This document shows positions 9,990 through 16,139 of a DNA stretch of 64,000 nucleotides, piece after piece. Origin of the DNA: Chloroflexota bacterium (GTDB taxonomy: Bacteria; Chloroflexota; Anaerolineae; SpSt-313). Position 1 is the stretch's first letter. The number at the start of each line of letters is the position of its first letter. The stretch covers positions 186,001 to 250,000 of the forward strand of contig JAKPJZ010000250.1 in NCBI GenBank assembly GCA_029553955.1, in the 5' to 3' direction. The translations under genes and the position numbers were made by a program. A model generated the notes under the pieces. That model was not told the origin of the DNA and ran no database searches. It saw only the letters and a list, made by a program, of their open reading frames with translations.

Positions 9990-10066
9990 CACGCTGCGCC
10001 AAAGGGTTCATCCCGCCTGCTGCGACAATAGTGTGACATGCAGCAGACGTGACCGGGCCTGCAGCC

Positions 10067-10246
10067 GCGCCGTAGCCGCGGCATCGTGCCGCGCGTCTGC
10101 GGCAACACGTCGCGCCGTAGCCGCGGCATCGTGCCGCGTGTCTCCGGCAACACGTCGCGCCGTAGCCGCGGCATCGTGCCGCGCGTCTCCGGCAACACGT
10201 CGCGCCGTAGCCGCGGCATCGTGCCGCGCGTCTCCGGCAACACGCC
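10067..10246. repeat. Four tandem copies of a 45-bp unit
   Basis: gcgccgtagccgcggcatcgtgcc... is repeated four times with only a few substitutions. Forty-five is a multiple of three, so every reading frame stays open. This is why long ORFs appear here on both strands, including a spurious 107-aa N-terminal extension of the dppA-like gene. Each unit contains gccgcggc and can form small hairpins. No ribosome binding site or known domain supports translation. Confidence 0.9.
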
Positions 10247-10353
10247 GCAGCCACGGTCCGGCGGCCTACGTCATGAGCAGCGTAGCGAAGCAATCTCCGG
10301 CCATACTCGCAACCACCGCTGGGCGAGCATGGGTCTGGCTACGGGAGGCGCAG

Positions 10354-11179: not shown

Positions 11180-11263
11180 GAGTCTGGGGTATTTGTGGTT
11201 GAGCAGCGCCGGCCTGCCCCGCGGGGCAGGCCGGCGCTGCTCAACCACAAATACCCCAGACTC
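11180..11263. repeat. Perfect 84-bp palindrome
   Basis: gagtctggggtatttgtggt... reads identically on both strands over 84 bp with no unpaired loop, centred at 11221/11222. It fills the gap between the dppA-like gene and the fdhD promoter. It has no T-run, so it is not a standard intrinsic terminator, although it could end transcription as a very stable hairpin. Confidence 0.92.
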
Positions 11264-12710: not shown

Positions 12711-12950
12711 TCAGCCCCCACCGATGGGTGGAAAGACGCCCACCTCATCGCCCGGCGCCAGCGCCCAGTCGAGCGGACGCGTGCGGCCGTTGACAAAGAC
12801 CACCTTGGCCTCGGCCGCCGGCACACCCAACTGCGCCAGCAGATCGACCACCGTCGCCCCCTCGGGCAACTCCACGGCCGTAAACGTCCCCAGCTCGGCC
12901 TGGGGCAGGTAGTGGCGCAGCATGGCGAAGAGCCGGACGTGGATGAGCAT
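12711..12950 (-). CDS. MoaD-like sulfur carrier with Gly-Gly tail
   Basis: 79 aa ubiquitin-like protein (MLIHVRLFAMLRHYLP, LPEGATVVDLLAQLG, FVNGRTRPLDWALAPGDEVGVFPPIGGG). The C-terminal GGG is the hallmark of a MoaD/ThiS carrier that is thiocarboxylated to donate sulfur during molybdopterin synthesis. ATG at 12950 has gaggtg just upstream. It lies between AOR and the other MoaD-like gene with tight spacing, so the three probably form one operon read on the minus strand. No MoaE or MoeB is in the window. Confidence 0.85.
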   Translation of the reverse strand: MLIHVRLFAMLRHYLPQAELGTFTAVELPEGATVVDLLAQLGVPAAEAKVVFVNGRTRPLDWALAPGDEVGVFPPIGGG

Positions 12951-12985
12951 CGTCACCTCACGCATCACGTCTCACGCATCACGCC

Positions 12986-14749
12986 CTACAGCTCCCCAAA
13001 GACCGAGTCGAGCGCGCTGTCGGGCACGTCGAAGACCTGGTTGTGTGGCGGCAGCGGCTCGTAGCGCATGAACTCTGGCATGCGGTCCTGCGCCTTGCCG
13101 ATGCCGGCAGCTTCGTTGAAGGCGCGCTCCTTCTTGAGGATTTCGCCGCCGAGCCGGGGCACGTCGTCGCCGGTCCAACTGGTGCCCAGCACGCCGTTCA
13201 CCTCTTCCACCATGCCCTCAAAGCCGCTGGCGATGTCGAGGATGGGGAAGGCGATGAAGAGACAGTGGCCGGTCGAGTCGATAAAGGCGGTGGTGGCCTG
13301 GAAGGCGCGGCTCAGGGCGGCTTTGCCCTCGGGGGTCAGTGCGTCGAGCTTGCCGCTGACGCCCAGGATCTCGGGGGCGATGGTGTAGCCGGCGGTGTGG
13401 TCGGCGCCCATGGTGGTGGTGGCGTAGGTGATGCCGATGCCCTTGACGGCGCGCGGCTCGTAGGCCGGCATGCCCTGGCCCTTGACCTCGGGCACGCGGG
13501 TGACGCCGAGCGCCTTGCCGGCGAGGCCGGTGCCGCCGCCGAGGATGCGGCCCATGGGCGTGCCCCGGCCCATCTCGTGGATCAGGCCGATGGCGCCCTT
13601 GGCGTCGCCAAAGGCGACCACGCCGGCCTGCATGGCCACGCCCAGGGTGGCGCCGGTCTCGATGGTGTCGAGGCCGTAGGCGTTGCACAGGCGCACCATC
13701 TCGGCGATGTCGTCGAGCGAGTCGATGCCAAGGTTGGCGCCCAGCGCCCAGTCCGACTCGTACTCTATGCAGGAGGCGATCTCCGAGCCGTCGGCCGCGT
13801 GCCAGGTGTTGGAGCACTGGATGATGCAGCCGGGGCTGCAGGCGTGGTTGTAGAGTTCCTTGCCCAGGCGCTGCTTGTTGCCCTCAAAGATCGACTCGCC
13901 GGCGATGCGGGCGGCACCTTCGAAGCGGCCGCTGGAAAAGTTGCGCGTGGGCAGGCCGCCAGCCTCGTTGAGGATGTTGATGAGCACGGCGGTGCCGTAA
14001 CTGTTCAGGCCGCCCTGGGGCTTGGTGATGGCGTGCTCACGGATGGCTTCGGCCAGCTTCTTGCGCCCCTGGTCGAACAGGGCCTTGTTGGCGACCTCTA
14101 CCCCTGGGGCGCCGGCATTGTCGCTGACGATGAACTTGAGCCCCTTGCTGGCCATGACCGCGCCCAGCCCGCCGCGGCCCGAGTAGCGCGTGGGGGCGTC
14201 TTTGCGGTCGTTGAAGGCGATGCCCGCGTTGCCGTAGCCATGCTCGGCAGCCAGGCCGCAGGCCGCCACGGCCACCTTGGCGCCAAAGCGCTTGTAGACC
14301 TCGGGGAAGACCTGGTAGAGGTCGCGGCCGGCATACTCGTCGGCGGGGAAGAACTCGACCTTGGGCCGGGCGGCGGGCACGTCCCAGGTGAGGTAGGCCA
14401 GCCAGTAGTGGCCCTGCTCTGCAGGCTGCCCCTCCACCACCAACGCCTTGATGCGCATGGCGGCCAGGTGCTGCGCCCACGAAGTGCCTGCGTTCGACTC
14501 TTTGATGCCGCCCGTCAGTGGCGACTTGGCGCCGGCCGAGATGCGGGCCGAGGAGGGGGCGGTGGTGCCGGTGACGATGCCCGGGGCGAAGACGAGCTTG
14601 TTGTTGGGGCCGAGTGGGTGGCACTGGGGGTCGACCTCATCATAGACGAGCGTCGACGTCATGCCGCGGCCGCCGAGGCGCGTGTAGGCCGCCGGGGCCT
14701 CCTCGAGGCGGTAGGTGCGGTCGGCCATGTTCAGTCGCAGGATCCACAT
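12986..14749 (-). CDS. Aldehyde ferredoxin oxidoreductase family tungsto/molybdo-enzyme
   Basis: 587 aa. AOR-family enzymes oxidise aldehydes to acids with ferredoxin (or run in reverse), using a tungsten or molybdenum bis-pterin cofactor and one [4Fe-4S] cluster. The N-terminal pterin-binding region (LGGRGMTSTLVYDEV, GTTAPSSARISAGAKSPLTGGIKESNAG) and GRGGLGAVMASKGLK are typical. The cluster ligands appear as CSPGCIIQC with a distal Cys in DSTGHC. ATG at 14749 (MWILRLNMADRTYR) is chosen because ggaggtgg lies 5 nt upstream; the ORF track's extension is leader RNA. The gene is preceded by a long leader with an intrinsic terminator and by its own promoter. Substrate unknown. Confidence 0.92.
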   Translation of the reverse strand: MWILRLNMADRTYRLEEAPAAYTRLGGRGMTSTLVYDEVDPQCHPLGPNNKLVFAPGIVTGTTAPSSARISAGAKSPLTGGIKESNAGTSWAQHLAAMRIKALVVEGQPAEQGHYWLAYLTWDVPAARPKVEFFPADEYAGRDLYQVFPEVYKRFGAKVAVAACGLAAEHGYGNAGIAFNDRKDAPTRYSGRGGLGAVMASKGLKFIVSDNAGAPGVEVANKALFDQGRKKLAEAIREHAITKPQGGLNSYGTAVLINILNEAGGLPTRNFSSGRFEGAARIAGESIFEGNKQRLGKELYNHACSPGCIIQCSNTWHAADGSEIASCIEYESDWALGANLGIDSLDDIAEMVRLCNAYGLDTIETGATLGVAMQAGVVAFGDAKGAIGLIHEMGRGTPMGRILGGGTGLAGKALGVTRVPEVKGQGMPAYEPRAVKGIGITYATTTMGADHTAGYTIAPEILGVSGKLDALTPEGKAALSRAFQATTAFIDSTGHCLFIAFPILDIASGFEGMVEEVNGVLGTSWTGDDVPRLGGEILKKERAFNEAAGIGKAQDRMPEFMRYEPLPPHNQVFDVPDSALDSVFGEL

Positions 14750-14991
14750 AGTCCACCTCCATGTGCTGCGTTGGGCACAGCCTCTGCCCAAGAGGGTGTG
14801 GGATATGCCGACTGAAAAAAACGGGAGGCAGCGCCGCCCACGCGGGACCGGCACTGCCTCCTTTGCCAACACGGCAGGCGCCGCGATTGCTCGCTGCACC
14901 CTCATAGTGGGCTGTGGCCCACTAACCGCCCAGTCTTCCCGGTAGGAAGGGGAGGGTCGGAGGAAGTTCGCCCTTTTTGCCCTGTTGTTCT
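14750..14991 (-). promoter_or_regulatory. Long AOR leader, candidate riboswitch or attenuator
   Basis: The predicted transcript starts near 14991 and runs about 240 nt before the AOR start codon. It contains a strong hairpin (agtgggc-cac-agcccact on the minus strand), a possible anti-terminator segment (cgcctgccgtgttggcaaaggaggc) that would compete with the terminator's 5' arm, the terminator itself, and then the ribosome binding site. Known molybdenum-cofactor riboswitches control this kind of gene, but I could not match their conserved sequence by eye. Confidence 0.5.
14815..14861 (-). terminator. Intrinsic terminator inside the AOR leader
   Basis: On the minus strand ggaggcagtgcc pairs with ggcgctgcctcc (12 bp, one G-U pair) and is followed by cg and seven T residues. 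It lies 66-112 nt before the AOR ATG. No upstream minus-strand gene is close enough to need it, which points to a conditional role. Confidence 0.75.
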
Positions 14992-14997
14992 GCAGGT

Positions 14998-15026
14998 ATT
15001 ATACACTGTTTTTGCGTATTGCGCAA
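14998..15026 (-). promoter_or_regulatory. Promoter of the AOR transcript
   Basis: Minus strand TTGCGC - 17 nt - TATAAT, with a perfect -10. It faces away from the moaA promoter. Confidence 0.68.
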
Positions 15027-15062: not shown

Positions 15063-15091
15063 TTGAACTGGCCCGCCTCTCTGACTATAAT
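15063..15091 (+). promoter_or_regulatory. Promoter of moaA
   Basis: TTGAAC - 17 nt - TATAAT; expected start near 15098, about 55 nt before the moaA ATG. It is divergent from the AOR promoter. Confidence 0.72.
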
Positions 15092-15152
15092 GGGAGCATG
15101 CGGCCCTTTCCCGCCTCGGCGCAGCGCCGGGGCCACACGATTCAGGTAGCCC

Positions 15153-16139
15153 ATGCCATATCTCGACTCCTTCAATCGCCCCATCGAATACCTGCGCATC
15201 TCGGTCACCGACCGCTGCAACCTGCGCTGTGTCTATTGCATGCCCGAGGAGGGCGTGGCGCCGCTGGGCCACGAGGCGGTGCTGCGCTATGAGGAGATTG
15301 CGCGCCTGGCGCGGCTGGTGGTGGGCCTGGGGGTCAGCAAGCTGCGGCTGACCGGCGGCGAGCCGCTGGCGCGCAAGGGTGTGGAGCAGCTCGTGGCCAT
15401 GCTGGCCGGCATCCCCGGCGTGCGCGACCTGGCGATGACCACGAACGGCACCCTGCTCGCCGGCCAGGCCGACGCGCTGGCACGGGCCGGGCTCAGGCGC
15501 GTCAACGTCAGCCTCGATACGCTGCGCGCCGAGCGCTATCACGCCATGACACGACGCGGGCAACTGGCCGACGTGCTGGCGGGCCTGGCGGCGGCCGGGC
15601 ATGCGGGCCTCGCGCCGGTCAAGATCAATATGGTGGTGGTGCGCGGGCTGAACGACGACGAGGTCGTCGATTTCGCCCGCAAGACGGTGCGCGACGGCTG
15701 GCACGTACGCTTCATCGAGGTCATGCCCCTGGGGGCCGGCCAAGCCGGCGCGCAGGCCGGCTTCGTGCCGACGGCAGAAACGCGCGCGCAGATCGAGGCG
15801 GCGTTCGGCCCGCTCACCGCGGTCGACGGCAGCGGCGCGGGGCCGGCGCGCTACTACCGCATCGCAGGCGCATCGGGGTCCATCGGCTTTATCAGCCCGC
15901 TCAGCGAGCACTTTTGCTTTGGTTGCAACCGCTTGCGCCTCACCGCCGACGGCCAGCTCATGCCCTGCTTGATGTCGGAGCGGGCCATCGACCTGCGCTC
16001 GCTCCTGCGCCGCGGCGCGAACGACGACGAGCTGCAGAGCGCCGTGCGGGCGGCCATCGCGGCCAAGCCCGCCGGCCATCACATGGACGCGGGGCCGCGG
16101 GGGCCAGGCGCAAGGCCGATGTCGAGGATTGGCGGATGA
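15153..16139 (+). CDS. moaA: GTP 3',8-cyclase MoaA
   Basis: 328 aa radical-SAM enzyme that converts GTP to 3',8-cyclo-GTP, the first step of molybdopterin synthesis. The SAM cluster motif is DRCNLRCVYCM near the N-terminus. The second cluster region is HFCFGCNRLRLTADGQLMPCL. The C-terminus ends RIGG, giving the Gly-Gly tail MoaA inserts into its active site. LTGGEPLARKG and NVSLDTL are further family motifs. ATG at 15153 has only a weak purine-rich site. It is divergently transcribed from AOR, and the MOSC gene follows on the same strand after a repeat-rich 334-bp gap. MoaC is not in the window. Confidence 0.95.
   Translation: MPYLDSFNRPIEYLRISVTDRCNLRCVYCMPEEGVAPLGHEAVLRYEEIARLARLVVGLGVSKLRLTGGEPLARKGVEQLVAMLAGIPGVRDLAMTTNGTLLAGQADALARAGLRRVNVSLDTLRAERYHAMTRRGQLADVLAGLAAAGHAGLAPVKINMVVVRGLNDDEVVDFARKTVRDGWHVRFIEVMPLGAGQAGAQAGFVPTAETRAQIEAAFGPLTAVDGSGAGPARYYRIAGASGSIGFISPLSEHFCFGCNRLRLTADGQLMPCLMSERAIDLRSLLRRGANDDELQSAVRAAIAAKPAGHHMDAGPRGPGARPMSRIGG

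Follow-up and report, generated by a model that had tools for sequence, protein, structure and literature searches.

The leader RNA of an aldehyde oxidoreductase (AOR) gene in the window (the whole 64,000-nucleotide stretch of Chloroflexota DNA analyzed here) belongs, as a divergent representative, to the established riboswitch family of the molybdenum/tungsten cofactor (Moco; RF01055) and does not form a new class. It very probably works as a transcriptional ON switch that governs AOR together with the MoaD-like gene that follows. Its aptamer and its terminator have one strand in common, a wiring that is found repeatedly before AOR genes, in several phyla of bacteria. A search of open-licence papers gave no description of Moco ON switches, AOR leaders, or the P5 variant presented below, so that, while the family itself is known, the recurrent ON-wired, AOR-linked variant is apparently undescribed there.

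The AOR gene (positions 12986 to 14749, minus strand) encodes a protein of 587 amino acids with the Pfam domains AFOR_N and AFOR_C. Among solved structures, its best matches are aldehyde:ferredoxin oxidoreductases, the tungsten enzymes 1AOR and 8C0Z being two of them; the genome also encodes a TupB-like permease. Immediately 3' of AOR lies the gene of a small MoaD/ThiS-like protein (12711 to 12968, minus strand; Pfam Ub-Mut7C/ThiS), and on the other side a divergent moaA (15153 to 16139, plus strand; TIGR02666) with its own promoter (TTGAAC-17-TATAAT, 15063 to 15091), which places the leader among genes for the synthesis and use of Moco or the tungsten cofactor. The AOR promoter (14998 to 15026, minus strand) combines the perfect -10 hexamer reported in the initial annotation (TATAAT, 15003 to 14998) with a 17-nt spacer and a -35-like TTGCGC (15026 to 15021). 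Because the latter matches at 3 of 6 bases, this promoter was absent from the output of the consensus promoter scan. Transcription is predicted to start at ca. 14991, ca. 242 nt upstream of the AOR ATG (14749, minus strand), which is preceded by the Shine-Dalgarno sequence GGAGGUG (14754 to 14760, minus strand; together with the start codon, 14760 to 14747).

Several other elements were noticed around these genes. A second hairpin (UUGGGCA...UGCCCAA, 14791 to 14771) sits between the terminator and the AOR Shine-Dalgarno sequence. Elsewhere, moaA is a classic target of Moco riboswitches; here, its promoter is close to consensus and its leader is short (15063 to 15153), and the Rfam covariance-model scan of the window placed no Moco RNA on the moaA side of the intergenic region. 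Just 5' of an fdhD-like ORF, positions 11180 to 11263 form a perfect 84-nt palindrome (two 42-nt arms, zero spacer). This genome has one complete copy of it and matches parts of it at two further sites; the palindrome may resemble a terminator in function or be an artifact of assembly. At positions 10066 to 10248, a 45-bp unit is repeated in tandem (4.1 copies, 97% matches). A query of two units matched the genome 72 times, in several cases within arrays, which suggests a GC-rich repeat family that is dispersed over the genome.

The assignment to the Moco family is based on a cmscan match to RF01055 at 14842 to 14974 of the minus strand, which covers the full-length model (1 to 135) with 43.7 bits (gathering score, 36) and an E value of 4.2e-7, computed over the 64-kb window. 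The initial annotation had described ca. 130 nt of foldable leader RNA, and this was borne out both by the match and by the folding energy of positions 14995 to 14825 (-89.3 kcal/mol versus -71.5 +/- 4.4 in shuffles; z, -4.0). The RNA has the whole P1-to-P5 architecture, P3 included, and keeps the conserved junction (CCGA / AGGG / CCU...AAAGGAG). On the minus strand, P1 pairs CCUCC (14959 to 14963) with GGAGG (14857 to 14861), as seen in an alignment described below (A1) and in pair counts. P2 (14929 to 14956) is followed by the 8-bp P3 hairpin UAGUGGGC-CACA-GCCCACUA (14905 to 14924), P4 (14876 to 14901) carries a GNRA-type tetraloop, GCAA (14890 to 14887), and P5 (14865 to 14875) consists of a G-C pair (14875-14865) and a C-G pair (14874-14866). 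It is in the last two helices and in P2 that the window RNA departs from the common form, which has a GAAA tetraloop closed by G-C instead of GCAA closed by A-U, an 11-nt GAAA receptor in P2 where the window RNA has none, and C-G/C-G in P5. In addition, the terminator arm of the window RNA coincides with a strand of P1. The receptor is an optional part of the family, since the four GCAA RNAs in the 2008 paper also lacked it (Regulski et al. 2008, PMC2408646).

The intrinsic terminator inside the AOR leader (14815 to 14861, minus strand) is, as initially annotated, a hairpin (14861 to 14824, GGAGGCAGUGCC...GGCGCUGCCUCC) followed by seven U residues (14821 to 14815), although a terminator scan alone found 1 against a shuffle mean of 1.0 and thus no excess over chance. 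Given that moaA, the upstream neighbor (15153, plus strand), is divergent, this terminator serves no upstream gene, just as had been proposed. The competing stem suspected ahead of it turned out to be P1, whose 3' strand GGAGG (14861 to 14857) doubles as the opening five bases of the terminator 5' arm, where it forms the base of the stem (five pairs). Aptamer and terminator are therefore mutually exclusive, and the aptamer, the terminator, and the strand common to both support the layout of a transcriptional riboswitch. Sequence inspection and folding of the window leader revealed no antiterminator between the aptamer and the terminator. In ViennaRNA, the terminator fold reached -92.8 kcal/mol versus -77.5 kcal/mol with the aptamer enforced, in a ligand-free model that is silent on the lifetime of bound P1. 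The probability of P1 rose (up to 0.54) only in transcripts ending before the 3' arm of the terminator was complete.

From this anatomy we infer ligand binding, the identity of the metal, and the direction of control in the cell. Without ligand, the terminator hairpin would capture the P1 3' strand GGAGG and transcription would halt at the U-run. The ligand would be a pterin metal cofactor, either Moco or, more likely for AOR, its tungsten analogue; ligand binding was put forward without direct demonstration in the paper that defined the Moco family (PMC2408646). The bound cofactor would keep P1 in the aptamer and leave the terminator short of its basal five pairs beside the U-run, and the weakened terminator would allow RNA polymerase to read through into AOR. 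Since the ligand would hold P1, which the terminator needs, read-through would be permitted by binding, that is, the predicted device is an ON switch. The outcome would be production of the AOR enzyme when its own cofactor is present, a direction that suits AOR because the enzyme requires this cofactor.

We then compared this design with a survey of RF01055 hits from relatives, from Chloroflexota, and from one class and one phylum centered on two distant carriers, together with genomes from one contig pattern scan for the P5 G-C form. The sample is nonrandom, because weak hits were fetched deliberately, and kinship among loci was handled only by dereplication (a single representative of each protein family, 50% identity). 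The RNAs and their flanks were aligned with a covariance model built in this analysis, and 302 distinct Moco RNAs were parsed. The wiring was called heuristically, by seeking a terminator within ca. 160 nt of each RNA and locating the start of its 5' arm. Of the 34 callable AOR leaders (12 of the 46 AOR leaders gave no platform call), 33 had the start of this arm within the P1 3' strand or the GCAAAGGAG ahead of it, versus 9 of 76 leaders of TupA, TupB, WtpA/ModA, MoaA, and MoeA genes (Fisher, 1e-18). With a single leader retained per gene family (50% identity), the ratio was 9:1 for AOR versus 3:26 for the others (P, 9e-6). The sequences of the terminator arms vary among loci, while the overlap with P1 is maintained; one AOR leader, L190, is an apparent OFF switch. 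In some non-AOR leaders (for example, L001, L009, and L015, as read by inspection), the terminator arm holds a CUUUCC-like complement of the aptamer segment GGAAAGGAG that would be an antiterminator, giving an OFF switch.

Among the 302 aligned RNAs, those linked to AOR mostly resemble the window RNA in three respects: a non-GAAA GNRA loop without receptor, a compensated change of C-G to G-C in P5, and an overlap of the terminator with P1. Across the survey, the receptor-like pattern was absent in 41 of 47 non-GAAA RNAs and present in 196 of 251 GAAA RNAs. The P5 pair was C-G in 222 of the parsed RNAs, G-C in 62, and U-A in 18, totals that carry no covariation evidence, since the final parser favors complementary pairs. 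In alignment A1, which comprises the window RNA and 33 others drawn from RNAs already parsed as Moco-like, 88.9% of the cells were paired, and covariation was 0.573 versus 0.217 in shuffled and ca. 0.11 in slid alignments. P5 was C-G in 21 of the 34 rows, G-C in 13, and mismatched in none, which is partly an effect of selection because the rows had been preparsed as matched C-G or G-C; that two compensated P5 forms exist can safely be read from these sequences. With the pattern-scan loci left out, because they are G-C by design, the G-C form was present in 16 of 25 AOR-linked RNAs versus 8 of 239 others (P, 7e-14), and in 6 of 13 versus 4 of 120 after dereplication (one per protein family, 50% identity; P, 4e-5). 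A strictly AOR-specific swap was considered and dropped, as G-C also occurs before formate dehydrogenase, rhodanese-like, moaA, and TonB genes.

Other arrangements were seen among the survey loci. L214, L068, and L019 are ON-wired Moco RNAs with P5 G-C located 5' of a lipoprotein-like gene, the protein of L214 having a rhodanese-like domain. At L018, L020, L155, L273, and L289, two Moco RNAs form tandem pairs within ca. 1 kb on one strand. In L058 and L079, both with P5 G-C, a MoaA-like start codon follows the P1 3' strand GGAG at a distance of a few bases, and these are perhaps translational OFF switches. In the source genome, there are six RF01055 matches: one before the TupB-like permease (L002), three before other genes, the window RNA (L005), and L006, which scores slightly under gathering (35.8 bits) and precedes a ferredoxin-AOR operon. 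The terminator of L006 shares its arm likewise (GGAGGCAAG...CUUGCCUCC), as judged by inspection where the caller was silent. The genome has eight AOR genes (PF01314), two with a Moco RNA and six without.

According to a published proposal, P3 marks the RNAs that sense Moco, and its absence marks those that sense the tungsten cofactor, or "Tuco" (Regulski et al. 2008, PMC2408646). The window RNA shares with the P3-lacking "Tuco" variants an apparent association with tungsten enzymes but differs from them in its 8-bp P3 (14924 to 14905), so that absence of P3 does not hold for it. It resembles the E. coli moaA RNA of the same paper in aptamer family and in having P3; however, the latter is a translational OFF switch of a synthesis operon that does not respond to the tungsten cofactor, whereas the window RNA is a predicted transcriptional ON switch of a tungsten-type enzyme. 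With P3 called by folding of each segment, not by covariation, 43 of the 46 AOR-linked RNAs lacked it and 3 had it (the window RNA, L087, and L089), 21 P3-containing RNAs preceded TupA- or TupB-like genes, and P3-less RNAs were also found before MoaA. P3 was dropped as a molybdenum/tungsten marker on these grounds, and the published rule is not safe here, because P3 occurs before a tungsten-type AOR and before TupA/TupB-like tungstate transporters. Among the transporters checked with metal-specific models, the substrate-binding ones matched TupA only and the permeases matched TupB best, although their metal is not certain because all score below the NCBIfam equivalog cutoffs.

The initial annotation had allowed for a new class of riboswitch and had suggested the Moco covariance model as a check on novelty. 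The reading of a class with no kinship to Moco can appeal to a modest RF01055 score and to the Moco consensus having gone unrecognized, probably because the RNA is divergent (GCAA, no 11-nt receptor, and a swapped P5 pair). We give it next to no chance, since the full-length match lies above the curated gathering score; moreover, intermediates connect the window RNA to canonical members, and the joint alignment is well paired (88.9% of cells) with strong covariation. The leader could also be simply a constitutive attenuator or an aptamer that has decayed and no longer senses. A single assembly is the source of this exact RNA, which would fit such a reading, but the reading is very unlikely in view of an intact P1 to P5 and conserved junction and of compensated pairs in P5 and at the P4 closing position. 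The structural conservation for which the initial annotation had proposed to examine the AOR leaders of relatives is also there, with the design kept before related AORs. An OFF switch like that of E. coli moaA would follow the documented direction of the Moco riboswitch (PMC2408646), and terminators separate from P1 do dominate before uptake and synthesis genes in the survey. For the window leader, we regard this direction as improbable: its terminator arm is the P1 strand itself, no antiterminator was seen, and the AOR Shine-Dalgarno sequence lies far from the aptamer, outside P1.

The ON switch that we favor is compatible with a further reading, in which the AOR-linked variant (P5 G-C, non-GAAA, no receptor) would sense the tungsten cofactor or a nucleotide-free bis-pterin and the common form Moco. 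A tungsten-cofactor subtype, already contemplated in the initial annotation, may exist, and the enrichment of P5 G-C before AOR genes, together with the many genomes that carry both P5 forms, speaks for it. We nevertheless hold this division of ligands to be doubtful, given that the common form sits before TupA/TupB-like tungstate transporters, the C-G form is found before some AORs, in other phyla RNAs that combine G-C with GAAA stand before moaA and TonB genes, and the correlation between P5 and AOR is confounded with ON wiring.

Whether and how Moco riboswitches discriminate between the molybdenum and tungsten cofactors is a question standing since 2008. To it, the survey adds a P5 change that is compensated and goes along with AOR genes, cases that contradict the P3 rule, and several genomes with both forms, and it provides a testable rule of direction, with ON before AOR and, for the most part, the reverse wiring before genes of uptake and synthesis. 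If the division of ligands were true, one genome would read two cofactor pools through two forms of one aptamer.
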